Assembly: GCA_022704185.1 (NCBI GenBank)
Contig: JAKJGV010000008.1
Span: 1-41,161, forward strand
Length of the DNA stretch: 41,161 bases
Direction of reading: 5' to 3'
Source of the DNA: Verrucomicrobiota bacterium
Lineage (GTDB): Bacteria > Verrucomicrobiota > Kiritimatiellia > CAIQIC01 > JAGNIJ01
Positions 16,673-26,548 of this stretch are shown in pieces; within the stretch, counting starts at the first letter, position 1; every line of letters starts with the position of its first letter. The notes below the pieces were generated by a model. The model ran no database searches, was not told the DNA's origin, and saw only the letters and a list, made by a program, of their open reading frames with translations. A program made the position numbers and the translations under genes.

Positions 16673-17521
16673 TCAAAACGCGTACTGAGCGCTCAACACC
16701 ACACCATCGCCAAGCCCGACCTCCGACGTGGATTCGTGATCCCCGCCGTTCACATAGGCCAGCACCAGCGTCAGGTTCGCGTCATAGAGCCAGGCGAGAT
16801 TCGCATTCCAGTGGTTTGCGTTCTCAAACGAATCGAACTTGGAGCCCTGCTCGAATTCCAGGCCCAGCGTGAGCTTGGAAGACAGGATCACATTCGCGTT
16901 CCCGAAGAGCGTCACGTCGCGTTCGTCATCGTAGCCGAAGACGCCGTTTACGTAACCCCTGGAGGAACGCAGACCGCCCGACAGGAGGACTGGAGCAGGC
17001 AGCGCGGTGATCAGCTTCGTCGCCACGCCATAGAAATCCACCGCGCTGTTATCCACTCCGTCTGCCACATCCGATGTTTGCTTGAATATCGCACCCGCAG
17101 CGATCGCGGGGACGAAGCTCTTGCCGCCGGCGTTCTCCGGCACGAGCAGGAGCTTTGTGCCCACGTTGTTCTTGTGGATATTCTTCCCATCCGGCGCGAT
17201 GACTTCGTGGCTGTACGAGAACTCCAACCGATCGAATACGCTGAAAGCAGCACCATGGCTGACCCAGTCCGCGTCAATGTCGCCGAGGTTCACATACCAG
17301 AACCCGAACTGGGGCTTGCTGATGAAGTCGGGTTTCCACGCCCACGCCTCGTCAGCCTGGCCCTTGTTCTGCCCCGCCACGTAAGCCAGCGGGTTGAAGG
17401 CAATGCCCCCCGCTCCCTCAATCGCGGTCAGCGGAACGCCCGCGTGCGCGTTTCCGCCGATCCATGCAATCAGGCTTGCGGCAATCACGATCCATTTTAC
17501 TGCGTTTAACTGCTTCTTCAT
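16673..17521 (-). CDS. DUF3034-family outer-membrane protein
   Basis: A 282-aa exported protein. Residues 1-27 are a classical signal peptide (MKKQLN, hydrophobic core, cleavage after AHA). The mature part opens GVPLTAIEGAGGIAFNPLAY, the hallmark of DUF3034, then runs as alternating amphipathic strands (GFWYVNLGDIDADW, LEFSYSHEVIA, VFGYDDERDVTLFGNANVI) and ends in Phe, as expected of a beta-barrel. Function of the family is not established. It is monocistronic: an intrinsic terminator for the upstream operon lies at 17567-17608 in the 208-bp gap before it. Confidence 0.83.
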   Translation of the reverse strand: MKKQLNAVKWIVIAASLIAWIGGNAHAGVPLTAIEGAGGIAFNPLAYVAGQNKGQADEAWAWKPDFISKPQFGFWYVNLGDIDADWVSHGAAFSVFDRLEFSYSHEVIAPDGKNIHKNNVGTKLLLVPENAGGKSFVPAIAAGAIFKQTSDVADGVDNSAVDFYGVATKLITALPAPVLLSGGLRSSRGYVNGVFGYDDERDVTLFGNANVILSSKLTLGLEFEQGSKFDSFENANHWNANLAWLYDANLTLVLAYVNGGDHESTSEVGLGDGVVLSAQYAF

Positions 17522-17566: not shown

Positions 17567-17608
17567 AAAAACAAAAACCCACTTTCACGAACCGCCCGGG
17601 AAAGTGGG
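17567..17608 (-). terminator. Intrinsic terminator of the metY-cbs-lyase operon
   Basis: On the minus strand CCCACTTTC (17608-17600) pairs with GAAAGTGGG (17586-17578) in a perfect 9-bp stem, followed immediately by TTTTTGTTTTT. It lies about 120 bases after the stop of the cystathionine lyase gene and 46 bases before the DUF3034 start. This is the clearest terminator in the window. Confidence 0.85.
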
Positions 17609-17729
17609 AAGCTGATCCAACCTGTATGATGCTTCATCTCAAGGCCAGACCCCTCCCCTGCCCCCGGGCCGACTACAGATGCACAGGGGTCTCGCAAATA
17701 CTTTGGTCCGCGGCCGTTTCATTTGATCC

Positions 17730-18872
17730 CTACCGCTCCCCGAGCGCGGCCTGGATATCCGCCTTCAAATCGTCCACATGCTCGATGCCGACGGAGAGCC
17801 GCAGCAGGTTGTCCTTGATGCCGCGCTTCGCGCGCTCGTCGGACGAAAAGGATGCGTGCGTCATCTTCGGCGGATAGCAGACCAGCGACTCCACGCCGCC
17901 CAGGCTCTCGGCAAGAACAAACACCTTGAGCTTTCCGACTGCCGCCTGCACGGCTTCATAACCGCCTTTCAGTTCCGCGCTGATCATCCCTCCGAATCCG
18001 CTCATCTGCCGTCGCGCGATATCGTGTCCGGGGTGCTCCGGCAACCCCGGGTAGTAAACGCGCTCGACGGACGGATGTTTCTGAAGAAACAACGCGAGAT
18101 CCTCCGCATTGCGGGAATGCCGCTCCATGCGGATCGCCAGGGTCTTCAAGCCGCGCAGCGCGAGCCAGCAATCCCACGGGCCCGGAACCGCCCCCGCGGC
18201 GTTCTGGTACATTTTGATCGCCGAGAAGGCTTCGTCGTCCGAAGTCACCACCGCGCCGCCGATCAGATCACTGTGTCCGCCGATGTACTTCGTCGTGCTG
18301 TGCACCACGATGTCCGCGCCCAGTTCGAGCGGCCGCTGAAGCGCCGGACTCGCGAACGTGTTGTCCACCACCAGCCGGATTCCGCGTCCCCGTACCGCCT
18401 CCGCAACAGCCCGGATATCCGCGACATGCAGCAGGGGATTCGTCGGCGTTTCGATCCAGATCAGTTTCGTGTTTTCGCGCACGGCGCCCGCGAATCGCGC
18501 GACGTCGCCCGTGTCTTCGTAGGTGGTGTCCACGCCCCAGCGCCGGAACACCTTCTCCAACAGGCGATAGGTTCCGCCGTAAAGATCGCTTCCGGCCAAC
18601 ACGTGATCGCCCGGCCCCAGCAGGTTCAATACCGCCGTGGTCGCCGCGACGCCGGACGCGAACGCGAGCCCATGCCTGCCGCTCTCGAGCGATGCGAGCG
18701 CCTGCTCGAGCGCCGCGCGCGTCGGATTGCCCGTCCGCGAATACTCGTACCCGCGCGGTTTTCCGATCGCATCCTGTTCATAGGTGGAGGTTTGATACAC
18801 CGGTGTCGTAACCGCGCCCGTCGCCGGATCCGTCGGCTGCCCGTCGTGAATGGCACGCGTTTCAAATTTCAT
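17730..18872 (-). CDS. Cystathionine gamma-lyase/synthase family PLP enzyme
   Basis: A 380-aa trans-sulfuration enzyme: ETRAIHDGQ at the start, YSRTGNPTR, SGVAATTAVLNLL, the PLP lysine in STTKYIGGHSD, and AESLGGVESLVCYPPKMTHAS near the end. Sequence alone does not separate gamma-lyase from gamma-synthase. The gene directly follows and overlaps cbs, so the likely job is cleavage of cystathionine to cysteine in reverse transsulfuration. The frame is open to 18929, but MKFETRAIH at 18872 has a GGAGA Shine-Dalgarno and a family-like N-terminus. It overlaps cbs by 11 bases. Confidence 0.9.
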   Translation of the reverse strand: MKFETRAIHDGQPTDPATGAVTTPVYQTSTYEQDAIGKPRGYEYSRTGNPTRAALEQALASLESGRHGLAFASGVAATTAVLNLLGPGDHVLAGSDLYGGTYRLLEKVFRRWGVDTTYEDTGDVARFAGAVRENTKLIWIETPTNPLLHVADIRAVAEAVRGRGIRLVVDNTFASPALQRPLELGADIVVHSTTKYIGGHSDLIGGAVVTSDDEAFSAIKMYQNAAGAVPGPWDCWLALRGLKTLAIRMERHSRNAEDLALFLQKHPSVERVYYPGLPEHPGHDIARRQMSGFGGMISAELKGGYEAVQAAVGKLKVFVLAESLGGVESLVCYPPKMTHASFSSDERAKRGIKDNLLRLSVGIEHVDDLKADIQAALGER

Positions 18873-20259
18873 ATGCGCTTCTCCAAAGCTGGTCCGACGA
18901 CCGGGCCTGCCGCCCCGTCCACGAAGCAATCAGGTCCGCCCGCGTGACAAAACCCACAGCCTGCCCCTCGCGCGTCACAATGATGCCCGGCACGGCGCCC
19001 AACAACACCCGGTATGCTTCCGACACATCCGTCTCCTCGTCCATGGACGGCAGCGGCTTTGCCATCACGGCCTGAATTTCCTGGTTCCGGATATCGAGCC
19101 CGTCGTGCAGAAGCTTCATCACCGTGGACTCGCTCAGGCTGCCGACCACATTCCCGTTCTCGATCACCGGGACCTGCGAGATGTTGTAGGCTTGCATCAG
19201 GTTGATCGCATCCACCAGTTTCTGGCGCGGGCGCACGCTCAACAATCCGCTGACGGACAACTTGCCCCGAATCACATCCCCGATCTTCAATGTCGCCTTC
19301 GACTGGTCTTCCCAGAAGCCGTTCTCCTGCATCCACGCATCGTTGTAGATCTTCGTGATGTAGTTCCTGCCCGTGTCGGGCAACAGCACCACGATGAAAT
19401 GCGGATGCGCCAGCCGCTGCGCAAACCGCAGCGCCGCAGCCACCGCTGTGCCGCACGATCCGCCGACCAGCAAGCCCTCTTCGCGCGCCAGGCGTCGCGC
19501 GGTATTGAACGACTCCTTGTCGCTCACGCGCACCATTTCGTCCACAAGCTGGCGGTTGAAGGTCTTCGGAATGAAGTCCTCCCCTATGCCCTCCACCTTG
19601 TAGGAACGAGGCGTGTCGCCCGAAAGAATGGACCCCTCCGGATCCGCCCCCACCACGATGAGGTTCTTGTTCTTTTCCTTGAGATACCGCGACACGCCGG
19701 AGATCGTGCCGCCGGTTCCCATGCCCGCCACGAAAACCTCGACTTGTCCGCCCGAATCTTCCCAGATCTCGGGACCCGTCGTGAGATAGTGAATGAGCGG
19801 GTTGTTCGGGTTCGCGAACTGGTTCGGCCGGAAAGCGCCGGGAATCTCGCGGGCCAGGCGATCGGCCACTCCGTTGTAGCTGTCCGGCGAATCCGGCGCA
19901 ACGCTCGTCGCCGTAATGACCACTTCCGCGCCGTACGCGCGCAGCAGGCTGATCTTGTCCTGGCTCATCTTGTCCGGCATGACCACGATGAGCCGATACC
20001 CCTTCACCGCCGCCGCCAGCGCGAGACCGACGCCCGTGTTGCCCGCCGTGGCCTCGACGATGGTGCCGCCGGGCTTGAGCAACCCCTCGCGCTCCGCGGC
20101 CTCGATCATCGCCAGGGCGATCCGGTCCTTGACGCTCCCACCCGGGTTCAGGAACTCGGCTTTGACATAGATGGGCGACTCGACGTCCGCCGCGATCCGG
20201 TTCAAACGGATCAGCGGCGTACGCCCGATGGCTTGCAGAACATTCCCGTACGACGACAT
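18862..20259 (-). CDS. cbs: Cystathionine beta-synthase with C-terminal CBS pair
   Basis: A 465-aa PLP enzyme that condenses homocysteine with serine to cystathionine. The catalytic half has IGRTPLIRLN, the PLP lysine in PGGSVKDRIA (near residue 44), EATAGNTGVGLA and GTGGTISGVSRYL. Residues about 340-450 hold two CBS modules (YNISQVPVIENGNVVGSLSE; VPGIIVTREGQAVGFVTRADL), the regulatory domain that binds SAM or adenylates in relatives. There is no N-terminal heme domain. The CBS domains separate it from CysK, which lies at 23903-24832. AGAGG stands 5 bases before the ATG; metY ends 26 bases upstream. Confidence 0.92.
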   Translation of the reverse strand: MSSYGNVLQAIGRTPLIRLNRIAADVESPIYVKAEFLNPGGSVKDRIALAMIEAAEREGLLKPGGTIVEATAGNTGVGLALAAAVKGYRLIVVMPDKMSQDKISLLRAYGAEVVITATSVAPDSPDSYNGVADRLAREIPGAFRPNQFANPNNPLIHYLTTGPEIWEDSGGQVEVFVAGMGTGGTISGVSRYLKEKNKNLIVVGADPEGSILSGDTPRSYKVEGIGEDFIPKTFNRQLVDEMVRVSDKESFNTARRLAREEGLLVGGSCGTAVAAALRFAQRLAHPHFIVVLLPDTGRNYITKIYNDAWMQENGFWEDQSKATLKIGDVIRGKLSVSGLLSVRPRQKLVDAINLMQAYNISQVPVIENGNVVGSLSESTVMKLLHDGLDIRNQEIQAVMAKPLPSMDEETDVSEAYRVLLGAVPGIIVTREGQAVGFVTRADLIASWTGRQARSSDQLWRSAYEI

Positions 20260-20285: not shown

Positions 20286-21590
<1,305 letters not shown>

Positions 21591-21637
21591 TTATGTTCTT
21601 CGCTTCGCTCGGATTGTTGTCTTCCATTCAAACCCAC

Positions 21638-21721
21638 AAAAAAACCCTCGCGCCTTCCGGCCCGGGGGCTTGCCTGCTCTCGCTGCACGCGCTCAGCCAA
21701 GCCCACCTCCCGCCGGAAGGC
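21638..21721 (-). terminator. Candidate attenuator hairpin in metY leader
   Basis: On the minus strand GCCTTCCGGC (21721-21712) pairs with GCCGGAAGGC (21661-21652), and inside it GGGCTTG pairs with CAAGCCC. Seven bases (GCGAGGG) separate the stem from a run of seven T (21644-21638). The 5' arms of both stems lie inside the small Met/Cys-rich ORF, so a ribosome on that ORF would block folding. The 7-base gap before the T-run is longer than usual, so termination strength is uncertain. Confidence 0.65.
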
Positions 21722-21734
21722 AACACATGCACAT
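21693..21734 (-). CDS. Candidate leader peptide MCMCCLPAGGGLG for metY
   Basis: Thirteen codons, ATG TGC ATG TGT TGC and onward, ending TGA at 21693. Five of the first five residues are Met or Cys. AGGTG (21746-21742) stands 7 bases before the ATG, a proper Shine-Dalgarno distance. It lies between the predicted metY promoter and metY, overlapping the 5' arm of the hairpin. By analogy with trp/his-type attenuation and the Cys-rich leader peptides known in mycobacteria, stalling at Cys codons when charged tRNA-Cys is scarce would stop the hairpin forming and raise metY expression. The peptide itself probably has no other role. This is inference from sequence; no homologues could be checked. Confidence 0.6.
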   Translation of the reverse strand: MCMCCLPAGGGLG

Positions 21735-21816
21735 ACCACAACACCTGCACTTTTTCCTATTCACCTTCACAGGAACCACCCTTGCCATTACCCTATTATC
21801 TCTATCGTGTAAATGG

Positions 21817-21844
21817 ACTATAACACGGGAAAACGCGCTGTAAA
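21817..21844 (-). promoter_or_regulatory. metY operon promoter
   Basis: On the minus strand TTTACA (21844-21839), a 16-base spacer and TATAGT (21822-21817) make a sigma70-type promoter. Transcription would begin near 21810, giving a leader of about 230 bases that contains the small ORF and hairpin. Confidence 0.65.
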
Positions 21845-21875
21845 GCAGATTTGTGATCTTTTTTCGGCCCCCGCT

Positions 21876-22745
21876 TTATCGCGCCAAACCCTCGTTCAGG
21901 CTTCCCCTACGATATCCATCCAGATCCATCGCCACATACCTGAACCCGCAGCCGCGGACATGATCCGCGATGCGCTTTCGCATCTCGGGGTCCGCCGCCC
22001 TCGGGATTTCCGACGGGTCGAACTCCAGCCGCGCAATGTCGCCGTGCGCTCTCACCCGGCACGCAGCAAATCCCATGTCGCGCAAGCCGGCTTCCGCACG
22101 CTCGATCATCGCCAGCGTTTCGGCCGAGATGCCGATTCCATACGGCACGCGCGACGCGAGACACGCCGACGCCGGCTGATCCGCTGTCGGCAATTCCAGC
22201 CGCCGGGACGCCGCGCGTATGTCTTCCTTGGTGAACCCCAATTCCTGGAGAGGACTCCTCACGCCGCGCTCCTGCGCCGCGCGCGCACCCGGCCGGTAAT
22301 CGCCGACATCGTCCGCGTTCGCTCCATCCAAAACCACCGCAAGGCCTTCATCTTTCGCGAGATTTTCGAGCAGCCCGAACAACTCCGTTTTGCAATGATA
22401 ACAGCGATCCGGATCGTTCCGCGCGTAATCCGGGTTGTCCAATTCCTTCGCCTGGATCACGCGGTGCCGGATGCCGATTCCCGCAGCGAGCGCCTTTGCT
22501 TCTTCCAACGCGCGGCGCGGAATCGAAGGGGAATCCGCCGTCACCGCCAGCGCGCGGTGACCCAACACCTCGAAGGCCACGGCAGCCAGGTATGTGCTGT
22601 CCACCCCGCCGCTGAAAGCGACCAACACGGACCCCGCATCCTTCATCCACTGCCGAAGCCGCGCCGCTTTTTCCTCCACGACAATCCGAACTTCGGGGTT
22701 CGATGTTCGATGTTCAGCGTTCAATGCTCTCCGCCCCCAATCCAC
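21876..22745 (-). CDS. larE: LarE-like ATP-dependent sulfur transferase
   Basis: About 289 aa of the PP-loop LarE family. SGGVDST (45-51) is the ATP pyrophosphatase loop; NPDYARNDPDRCYHCKTELF (104-123) and PASACLASRVPYG (191-203) are LarE signatures, the latter with Cys195 at the position of the sacrificial cysteine of Lactobacillus LarE. LarE donates its own cysteine sulfur to the nickel-pincer nucleotide of lactate racemase, but larA, larB and larC are not in this window, so the target may differ. ATG 22745 overlaps mnmA by 25 bases and would encode a 7-bp micro-repeat as LNAEHRTSN; GTG 22679 is a plausible truer start. It follows mnmA directly, making a two-gene sulfur-transfer unit. Confidence 0.85.
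   Translation of the reverse strand: MDWGRRALNAEHRTSNPEVRIVVEEKAARLRQWMKDAGSVLVAFSGGVDSTYLAAVAFEVLGHRALAVTADSPSIPRRALEEAKALAAGIGIRHRVIQAKELDNPDYARNDPDRCYHCKTELFGLLENLAKDEGLAVVLDGANADDVGDYRPGARAAQERGVRSPLQELGFTKEDIRAASRRLELPTADQPASACLASRVPYGIGISAETLAMIERAEAGLRDMGFAACRVRAHGDIARLEFDPSEIPRAADPEMRKRIADHVRGCGFRYVAMDLDGYRRGSLNEGLAR
22698..22725. repeat. Four 7-bp micro-repeats at mnmA-larE junction
   Basis: GTTCGAT, GTTCGAT, GTTCAGC and GTTCAAT run end to end. They overlap the mnmA stop codon and the first codons of the larE frame if ATG 22745 is used. Related GTTCGATGTTCAG strings, read as 'FDVRCSMFDVQ' in one frame, are familiar intergenic repeats in PVC-type genomes; that recollection could not be checked here. 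Confidence 0.7.
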
Positions 22746-23797
22746 CCCCCGCCGAGCACCTCATCGCCATCGCAGAAGACGGCGGCCTGGCCGGGCGTCA
22801 CGGCGAACTGCGGCTGGTCGAATTCCACTTCGACCGAACTCCCCTCGCGCAGATGAACCACGCAGGGCGCGCCGGAATGGCGGTATCGCAGCCGCACGTT
22901 GAGGCGACTTTCGTCCGGCGGCGGCTTCCCGGCAACCCACGCGACCTGCCCCACCACGCACCGGGTCGTTGAAACCTCTTCGCGCGTGCCCACCACCACG
23001 ACATTGCTGTCGGCATGCACTTCCTTAACATAGAGACGATCGGCCGCCGACACGCCGATTCCTTCCCGCTGCCCGACGGTGAACCGGAAAAATCCCTCGT
23101 GGCTCCCGACCACCTTCCCCGACGAATCCACGACCGCCCCCTCCTTCTTCAGGTCGGGACGCCGACTCTCGATGAAAGGCGCATACCCATCTTCCTTCAC
23201 GAAGCAGAGATCCTGGCTTTCCGACTCCAGTGGCACGGGAAGGTTGTGAGTCTTTGCATATTCCGTTGCCTGCTCTTTCGTCCACCCGCCCAACGGGAAT
23301 ACGACGCGTCCCAGCTGCGCCTGGTCCAGGCGATGCAGGAAATAGGACTGGTCCTTCTTCGCGTCCACGCCGCGCAGAAGATGCCAGCCGTCGGGCCGAC
23401 GTTCGACGCGCGCGTAATGCCCGGTCGCGATATGCGTGCAACCCAACTCCAACGCGTCTCGAAGCAGGAGCCCGAACTTGATCACCTGGTTGCAGAGAAC
23501 GCAGGGAGAAGGCGTGCGTCCGCGCGCGTATTCCTCGACAAACGCGTCCACAATGCGCTCCCCGAAGAAATCCACGGCGTCGATCACGTAATGCTCGAAC
23601 CCGAGGAACTGCGCGATCTGCCGCGCGCGCATGGCATCCCCCAGCGAGCAGCAACGCGACCCTTCGGACCACAGGTGCGCGGTGAAGCCAACCACCTCGT
23701 GCCCCTGCTCCATAAGCAAGGCCGCGGCGACCGAGCTGTCCAGGCCGCCGCTCATGCCCACCGCGATGCGGAGGGGCTTGGAATCCGTGTGGCTCAT
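22721..23797 (-). CDS. mnmA: tRNA-specific 2-thiouridylase
   Basis: A 358-aa PP-loop enzyme that thiolates U34 of tRNA-Lys, -Glu and -Gln. GMSGGLDSS (14-22) is the ATP-binding loop; Cys102 in PCVLCN and Cys198 in SQDLCF are the nucleophile and persulfide-carrying cysteines. GHYAR and KDQSYFLHRL are also typical. The C-terminal barrel is present, so the protein is full length, ending in a Gly-rich tail. It heads a two-gene unit with the LarE-like protein, in a region devoted to sulfur metabolism. Confidence 0.93.
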   Translation of the reverse strand: MSHTDSKPLRIAVGMSGGLDSSVAAALLMEQGHEVVGFTAHLWSEGSRCCSLGDAMRARQIAQFLGFEHYVIDAVDFFGERIVDAFVEEYARGRTPSPCVLCNQVIKFGLLLRDALELGCTHIATGHYARVERRPDGWHLLRGVDAKKDQSYFLHRLDQAQLGRVVFPLGGWTKEQATEYAKTHNLPVPLESESQDLCFVKEDGYAPFIESRRPDLKKEGAVVDSSGKVVGSHEGFFRFTVGQREGIGVSAADRLYVKEVHADSNVVVVGTREEVSTTRCVVGQVAWVAGKPPPDESRLNVRLRYRHSGAPCVVHLREGSSVEVEFDQPQFAVTPGQAAVFCDGDEVLGGGWIGGGEH

Positions 23798-23837
23798 ACA
23801 GGAAACTTAGCGCAAAGACGCGAAGGGCGCAAAACAT

Positions 23838-23899
23838 CCCCTCACCCCACCCCTCTCCCATTGGGCGAGGGAGCAAGATAAGAGGACCGAGGTGAGGGG
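23838..23899. repeat. REP-like inverted repeat between mnmA and cysK
   Basis: CCCCTCACC at 23838-23846 faces GGTGAGGGG at 23891-23899, with an inner CCTCTCCC/GGGCGAGG pairing. It fills nearly all the gap after the cysK stop. Next to it, at 23811-23836, three 9-base units of the type GCGCAAAGA/CGCGAAGGG/CGCAAAAC form a second small repeat. Both look like dispersed intergenic repeats. Confidence 0.75.
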
Positions 23900-23902
23900 T
23901 TC

Positions 23903-24832
23903 TCACTCGACGAGATTTTTATACAATGGCGTTGAAAGGTAGCGCTCGCCGAAACTGCAGGCGATCGTCACGATGCGTTTGCCCTGAAGTTTGAACTGCT
24001 CAATCGCCTTGCGCACCGCGCATGCGTTCGCGCCGGTGCTGATGCCGGCGAAAATGCCTTCCTGCGCGAGGATGCGGCCCCATTCCATCGCCTCGTCGTT
24101 CGACACCGTGACGACCCCGTTGAGCAGGCTGGTATCGAGGTTCTTCGGGATGAACCCCGCGCCGATGCCCTGGATTTTGTGCGGACCCGGCTTGCCGCCG
24201 CTGATCACGGGCGACGTCTCCGGCTCGACCGCATAGGCTTGAAACGAGGGGTTCTTCTTCCGGATGAACCGCGTCACGCCGGTGATCGTCCCGCCGGTGC
24301 CGACCCCGGTCACGATGGCGTCAATCCGCCCTTCACAAGCCTCCCAGATTTCAGGTCCCGTTGTCGCCTCGTGAATCGCGGGGTTTGCCGGATTGTCAAA
24401 TTGCTGCGGCATCCATCCGTTCGGCGTTTCCGCAAGAATCTCCTGCGCCTTTTCGATCGCGCCCTTCATCCCCTTGTCGGCCGGTGTCAACACGAGCTGC
24501 GCGCCGAGCGCCTTGAGCATCGCCCGCCGTTCAACGCTCATGGATTCCGGCATCGTCAACAGAAGCTTGTACTTCCTCGCGGCGCAGACGAAAGCGAGCG
24601 CAATGCCCGTGTTGCCGCTGGTCGGCTCCACGATCAGCGTGTCCTGCTTGATGAGCCCTCGCTTCTCTCCATCGTCTATCATGGAAACCCCGATACGGTC
24701 CTTCACGCTGTTCATCGGGTTCATGGACTCCAGCTTCAGAAACACTTCCGCCACGCCCCCGCCGAAATGGTCGCCCAACTTCAAGACCGGCGTGCGTCCC
24801 ACGGTGTCAGTCACCTGTTTGAATGCCTTCAT
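23903..24832 (-). CDS. cysK: Cysteine synthase (O-acetylserine sulfhydrylase)
   Basis: A 309-aa PLP enzyme that makes cysteine from O-acetylserine and sulfide. Visible are VGRTPVLKL, the PLP lysine in MNSVKDRIG, EPTSGNTGIALAF, the phosphate-binding GVGTGGTITGV, and IQGIGAGFIP. It lacks CBS domains and is of normal length. The frame is open 12 codons upstream, but MKAFKQVTDTVGRTP at 24832 has a GAGGG Shine-Dalgarno 5 bases away. It is transcribed from its own promoter (24900-24928) and is not fused to the mnmA unit, from which the REP-like repeat separates it. Confidence 0.94.
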   Translation of the reverse strand: MKAFKQVTDTVGRTPVLKLGDHFGGGVAEVFLKLESMNPMNSVKDRIGVSMIDDGEKRGLIKQDTLIVEPTSGNTGIALAFVCAARKYKLLLTMPESMSVERRAMLKALGAQLVLTPADKGMKGAIEKAQEILAETPNGWMPQQFDNPANPAIHEATTGPEIWEACEGRIDAIVTGVGTGGTITGVTRFIRKKNPSFQAYAVEPETSPVISGGKPGPHKIQGIGAGFIPKNLDTSLLNGVVTVSNDEAMEWGRILAQEGIFAGISTGANACAVRKAIEQFKLQGKRIVTIACSFGERYLSTPLYKNLVE

Positions 24833-24899
24833 AAATCCCTCTTTTGAAACACGTTTTGCCGTTGCCACATAACATACGTATTATCAATCGGAATACTGT

Positions 24900-26473: not shown

Positions 26474-26548
26474 GGCGCGGTAGCCAAGTGGTAAGGCACG
26501 GGTCTGCAAAACCTGTATTCACCGGTTCGATTCCGGTCCGCGCCTCCA
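26474..26548 (+). tRNA. tRNA-Cys (GCA)
   Basis: A full cloverleaf can be drawn: acceptor GGCGCGG/CCGCGCC, D arm with AGCC..GGTA, anticodon GCA at 26506-26508 in the loop CTGCAAA, T arm CCGGTTCGATTCCGG, discriminator T at 26545 as expected for Cys, and an encoded CCA at 26546-26548. It delivers cysteine and is a lone tRNA gene, lying about 1.6 kb from cysK. Confidence 0.97.

Follow-up and report, generated by a model that had tools for sequence, protein, structure and literature searches.

S-box/SAM riboswitches and T-boxes precede sulfur amino acid genes. Polycysteine short ORFs located before mycobacterial cys operons were reportedly described by Canestrari et al. in 2020. In mycobacteria such ORFs are leaderless and their action is described as translational (PMC9031893; PMC13236596; PMC9094748). 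A prediction from 2005 placed Cys leader peptides, but no terminators, upstream of cbs in Bifidobacterium and of cys operons in Mycobacterium and Propionibacterium; the same paper places trp leader-peptide attenuators in the trp operons of Corynebacterium and Streptomyces (PMC1262725). We found in the open-access literature no earlier description of a transcription-attenuation switch of this kind for cysteine, or in the bacterial group considered here. In this lineage, a complete terminator/antiterminator pair in a Cys leader would mean that the trp-type design also serves cysteine. The region described below is very likely to be a cysteine-responsive, ribosome-mediated transcription attenuator that follows the logic of trp and his.

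The window, that is, the whole stretch of DNA analysed (41,161 nt), carries on its minus strand, in this order, cysK, mnmA, larE, a leader, metY, the genes for cystathionine beta-synthase and cystathionine gamma-synthase/lyase, a second leader and a DUF3034 gene. The genes that matter here are the following.

20286-21578, minus strand: metY, O-acetylhomoserine/O-acetylserine sulfhydrylase (PF01053; TIGR01326), first gene under leader copy 1, ATG at 21578
18862-20259, minus strand: cystathionine beta-synthase, cbs (TIGR01137)
17730-18929, minus strand: cystathionine gamma-synthase/lyase-type PLP enzyme (PF01053; NF005871)
16673-17521, minus strand: DUF3034 gene, of an uncharacterised family (PF11231), under leader copy 2
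23903-24868, minus strand: cysK
26474-26548, plus strand: tRNA-Cys gene

The closest named relatives of MetY are MAGs of Lentisphaerae, Kiritimatiellae and Verrucomicrobia. The genes upstream of the leader (21876-24868, minus strand) are sulfur-linked too, namely larE (sulfur transferase), mnmA (tRNA 2-thiolation) and cysK. Between larE and metY, copy 1 of the leader consists of these features.

21817-21844, minus strand: sigma-70-like promoter (consensus scan and sequence), TTTACA 21844-21839, N16, TATAGT 21822-21817
21693-21788, minus strand: Cys-rich leader ORF copy 1 (sequence and chance test), MARVVPVKVNRKKCRCCGMCMCCLPAGGGLG, then stop
21712-21721, minus strand: arm 2, the 5' arm of the putative antiterminator, GCCTTCCGGC, within the leader ORF and immediately 3' of its last Cys codon
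21652-21661, minus strand: arm 3, GCCGGAAGGC, partner of arm 2 or part of the terminator hairpin
21645-21668, minus strand: putative terminator hairpin 3:4, CCCCCGGGCC-GGAA-GGCGCGAGGG, -15.1 kcal/mol, flush with the U-run
21638-21644, minus strand: U-run T7, where attenuated transcripts are predicted to end (sequence and a covariance-model match at 21638-21752)

The promoter is the only sigma-70-like match of the consensus scan in 21570-21880, agreeing at 10 of 12 positions where shuffled sequences are expected to give 0.3 matches. Read from the ATG at 21788, the leader has 31 amino acids, including 7 Cys, and ends at the TGA at 21695-21693; an in-frame GTG at 21770 is an alternative start, giving 25 amino acids with the same 7 Cys, and the shortest frame, from the ATG at 21734 to that TGA, reads MCMCCLPAGGGLG. 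The start codon and the ribosome-binding site are uncertain. With regard to the leaderless character of the mycobacterial polycysteine ORFs, the ATG at 21788 lies about 20 nt downstream of the presumed RNA start near 21810. The promoter, the ORF MCMCCLPAGGGLG, arm GCCTTCCGGC, T7 and metY, all listed in a first-pass annotation of this DNA, were each found on the minus strand as stated there; its 13-codon ORF is present but forms just the 3' end of the longer frame that starts at ATG 21788 or GTG 21770.

Six Cys fall within 10 codons of copy 1, a density reached in 2 of 20,000 first-order Markov simulations of the intergenic stretch, and among the window's 1,505 stop-to-stop segments no comparable Cys-dense segment was found besides copy 1. 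The Cys clustering exceeds chance, and for the leader RNA the folding energy is -58.5 kcal/mol (z = -3.8). By eye, a motif of the type GATAG.AATA.TAGGGTA was seen at or just past the promoter (21790-21812, minus strand), and again upstream in L005, L013, L117, L122, L215 and L221, before metY, DUF3034 or the leader. A gene for an Rrf2-family regulator (PF02082) often lies near this motif, which may be an operator adding a second layer of control.

Two mutually exclusive stems can form in the leader RNA. No hairpin of the leader is more stable than the 10-bp stem GCCTTCCGGC/GCCGGAAGGC, which ends 7 nt short of the U-run. The weaker 3:4 stem, which shares the 3' arm GCCGGAAGGC with the 2:3 stem, abuts T7 exactly. 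The best reading of the modelled structures is that the former is the antiterminator and the stem at 21668-21645 the terminator. Of all the members' terminators, that of copy 1 is the weakest, having one bulge and one mismatch (z -0.7), and it was not picked up by a consensus terminator scan. A second copy is located in the same run of genes.

17639-17722, minus strand: Cys-containing leader ORF copy 2, MKRPRTKVFARPLCICSRPGGRGGVWP, then stop
17573-17608, minus strand: copy 2 terminator, CCCACTTTC...GAAAGTGGG (17608-17578), followed by T5 (17577-17573)

Here arm 3, CCCGGGC, can also pair with arm 2, GCCCGGG, inside the ORF.

In the proposed attenuator, the leading ribosome would translate the Cys-rich leader with RNA polymerase travelling in front of it. 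A shortage of charged tRNA-Cys would make the ribosome stall in the Cys cluster, leaving arm 2 free to pair with arm 3 once the latter has been transcribed; with 2:3 paired the terminator could not form, so transcription would run on into metY, cbs and the lyase gene. With ample cysteine the ribosome would run through to the stop codon, which lies close to where arm 2 ends, and mask this arm; arm 3 would join the 3:4 hairpin beside the U-run, and transcription would stop near 21638. The second copy would gate the DUF3034 gene. We infer that transcripts end at the U-run, that charged tRNA-Cys acts as the signal, and in which direction the genes respond. In this model the leader probably lets the bacterium turn on sulfur-amino-acid genes when cysteine is short.

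A ribosome footprint model gives for copy 1 a terminator probability of 0-0.09 with the ribosome on any Cys codon; once it has reached the stop codon, the value is 0.75. Switching occurs in this model, for some Cys codons at least, in the two window copies, G005, G081, G063 and G303. In the remaining 7 of the 13 clear members the equilibrium structure still contains the terminator for most stall positions; they would need ordered folding, with 2:3 formed before arm 4 is made.

Homologous leaders were found in genomes of one class, judging from named relatives Kiritimatiellia: 13 clear members, two of them in the window, and two weaker ones. All 13 have a Cys-containing ORF, a 2:3 stem and a 3:4 stem abutting a U-run, with spacing alike (21-33 nt from the Pro codon to the stop, 48-63 nt from the stop to the U-run). 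The leaders of G086 (L035; ...MGCCMCSVPGRRRLSMPIA, then stop) and G005 (L034; ...GMCCSSPGRGGLFMRVM, then stop), whose MetY proteins are 87-88% identical, share the same two-stem plan. A covariance model built from these two leaders alone with loops masked (R1) matched window copy 2 at 17681-17569, between the lyase gene and DUF3034, and one copy before DUF3034 in G081. A look upstream of DUF3034 that was blind to the motif gave, for the closest homologues, Cys-rich ORFs with terminators, each ORF ending in a stop, in G063 (DGCCCCKSPERWAMRYC), G058 (MLMCCCCMAQDPEGGAAR), G128 (AMCMCMCACARPGGGAMRTC), G126 (AMCLCVCTCARPEGGVVRIC), G057 (LCCTCARPCPEGGTMRYC) and G303 (GMCCCARHCPEGGPMRYC), and again G081 and window copy 2. 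A model using sequence alone (R2) brought in another copy in G057 (AMRGCCRGCSRPEGGATRYC, then stop) and G153 (MAMCCCRCTCPEGGAMKRC, then stop), the latter before a DcaP-like porin.

A third model (R3), built without any sequence of the window, G005 or G303, recovers copy 1 at exactly 21638-21752 (31.7 bits, E 9.5e-7), copy 2 at 17571-17698 (25.6 bits, E 3.9e-5), G005 and G303, and is not blind as to region because its alignment was made once the window copies were already recognised. It adds a copy before an HPr-like gene in G103 (L230; 50.8 bits), counted as weaker since it has two Cys only. The other weaker member, G027 (L010), has an ORF that by eye ends ...DRCGGLRMCPAGGFLRCG and a stop, 17.0 bits with R3 and no clear U-run. 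In a sample of 388 genomes of the phylum, all convincing R3 matches fall within the class. G075 (L162), with a Cys ORF and no U-run, was not counted. Weak R2/R3 matches with no Cys ORF and terminator beside related genes were dropped (L192, L195, L197-L200, L202, L203, L205, L222, L232, L234-L240, L244), and the weak R1 matches L149-L153 were assessed by R3 rescoring alone. In the nearest genomes of the same family the whole leader is absent, and a short promoter region only precedes metY; the element is therefore patchily distributed, and we propose that it has often been lost, or has moved.

Window copy 2 and G005 have just two Cys codons before arm 2. In G128, G126, both G057 copies and G303 the leader ends with a Cys codon right before TGA (MRYC, MRTC or VRIC, then stop), this terminal codon falling inside a short hairpin (CTGTTGA...AACAG) that caps the antiterminator (columns 69-88 of the nine-sequence alignment, A8).

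A8 was used for the stem tests. Of the terminator's cells 92.8% are paired, where sliding gives no more than 48%, and 6 cells differ on both sides of the stem (0 of 500 shuffles). For the antiterminator the paired share is 70.8% (no more than 43% after sliding), and 18 cells differ on both sides (1 of 500 shuffles). These figures are tilted towards the structures, because the shuffles ignore relatedness and a single member sequence was the source of the drawn structures. Arm 2 pairs better with its own arm 3 than with an arm 3 from another member (mean -32.3 versus -27.3 kcal/mol, permutation p ~1e-4). In the comparison of related leaders proposed in the first-pass annotation, the small ORF, its Cys codons, both stems and the U-run are kept in homologues, along with base changes on both sides of the stems.

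Control by the leader peptide might instead be translational or Rho-dependent, with hairpins that are incidental, in line with reports or proposals on the cysteine leaders of mycobacteria. The Cys leader peptides of Mycobacterium lack terminators (PMC1262725), the mycobacterial leaders are described as translational controls (PMC9031893; PMC13236596), and G027 and G075 carry a Cys ORF with no clear U-run terminator. Against this, a stem flush with the U-run occurs at like spacing in 13/13 clear members, both the terminator and the antiterminator show two-sided base changes, and the U-run is located upstream of the next gene's ribosome-binding site and separate from it; we regard such control as unlikely.

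The first-pass annotation had taken the strong hairpin for the terminator, prevented by a ribosome stalled on Cys codons. This hairpin is indeed the most stable of the leader, but it ends 7 nt before the U-run, and its equivalents in G086 and G005 end 20 and 13 nt before it, with a second stem touching the U-run. Moreover, a ribosome at the stop codon would also block the 5' arm of the strong hairpin, so that ample cysteine would not restore it. This version is very improbable. Since a second stem that shares its 3' arm touches the U-run, the strong hairpin reads better as the 2:3 antiterminator, and stalling at the Cys codons would permit it, not block it; the 7-base gap, named as a weak point at the time, is explained by the stem at 21668-21645 lying flush with T7. 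The proposal of a Cys, possibly Cys/Met, leader-peptide attenuator on metY is strongly supported by the homologous leaders, its switching step being the part that had to change.

A ligand-binding riboswitch or a protein-binding RNA element, with the small ORF incidental, would fit the nucleotide conservation around CCGGAAGGAGG...CTATGCGG and the U-run terminator. Rfam models, those of SAM riboswitches and T-boxes included, gave no match in the window, and at a permissive threshold the nine member loci gave a group II intron domain only. Besides, across the nine members the ORF frame holds 37 Cys codons and the remaining two frames 13 and 5, TGT and TGC are both used, and conservation lies mostly in the pairing arms and the adjoining codons, all of which leaves such an element very little chance of being the explanation. 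The intron domain match, below threshold, was observed near the attenuator of G126 (L160, 2802-2978; RF02005, 36.8 bits, gathering score 49). In NCBIfam no family covers these leader peptides, and a marginal ferredoxin-type match to the Cys run (E 0.007) was rejected as composition. Chance assembly of a Cys-rich open frame and GC-rich hairpins in GC-rich intergenic DNA, for which the lack of the element in the nearest relatives and the imperfect window terminator might speak, is the least credible account, contradicted already by the homologues, by the chance tests that Cys clustering and fold both pass, and by an independent model that finds the element at the same place in the window and also, in many genomes, upstream of genes related in function.

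The predicted targets of the attenuator are metY, DUF3034(-metY) operons, the DcaP-like porin and the HPr-like gene. Control of metY is predicted, as in the first-pass annotation, whose metY-cbs-lyase regulon would be too narrow, with copy 2 located 3' of the lyase gene and before DUF3034. In several genomes (G057, G058, G063, G081, G126, G137 and G173, including L154, L216, L219 and L220) DUF3034 is encoded just upstream of metY in the same orientation, except that in G058 metY is on the same contig and not adjacent. This arrangement suggests a role of DUF3034 in sulfur or homocysteine metabolism. An HPr-like small protein is encoded after DUF3034-metY in G126 (L219, 1131-1475, minus strand), and the HPr-like gene of G103 (L230) is directly 3' of its attenuator. 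Met accounts for 13 of the 90 codons of nine members, against the 37 Cys, and in many members the Met codons are mixed among the Cys codons, so that sensing of both amino acids is possible; some of them may be alternative starts. We are somewhat inclined to see here an undescribed cysteine-specific attenuator with an intrinsic terminator, apparently confined to the class, with a regulon of metY, DUF3034-metY, the DcaP-like porin and the HPr-like gene, DUF3034 being a candidate sulfur-acquisition protein and the Met codons perhaps adding a second sulfur amino acid. The alignment of members can seed a covariance model for annotation, and an uncharacterised family, DUF3034, would become linked to cysteine or sulfur supply.

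As with S-box/SAM riboswitches and T-boxes, transcription attenuation is proposed here before methionine and cysteine genes; unlike them, the element matches no Rfam model and would sense by translation of Cys codons. It shares with the actinobacterial Cys leaders a Cys-codon-rich short ORF before cysteine genes and cysteine as the presumed signal, but it differs in conserving two alternative stems and an intrinsic terminator (the latter in 13/13 clear members), where those leaders have no conserved hairpins or terminators. Its layout resembles that of the trp, his and leu attenuators of Proteobacteria, which have runs of regulatory codons in a small ORF, an antiterminator overlapping the terminator and a U-run, and are placed before biosynthesis genes of the same amino acid. 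Correspondingly, clustered Cys codons lie between the promoter and metY, an intrinsic terminator, imperfect in copy 1, lies between the ORF and the first gene, the antiterminator is mutually exclusive with it and shows two-sided base changes, and metY, cbs and the cystathionine enzymes belong to the pathway of the amino acid presumably sensed. The differences from those attenuators are the Cys codons, the Kiritimatiellia-type class, targets that include the DUF3034 family and a porin, and the lack of sequence kinship to known attenuators in Rfam and NCBIfam. With no Rfam or NCBIfam family, and with earlier Cys leaders being without terminators, we take the element to be a new form of leader-peptide transcription attenuation.
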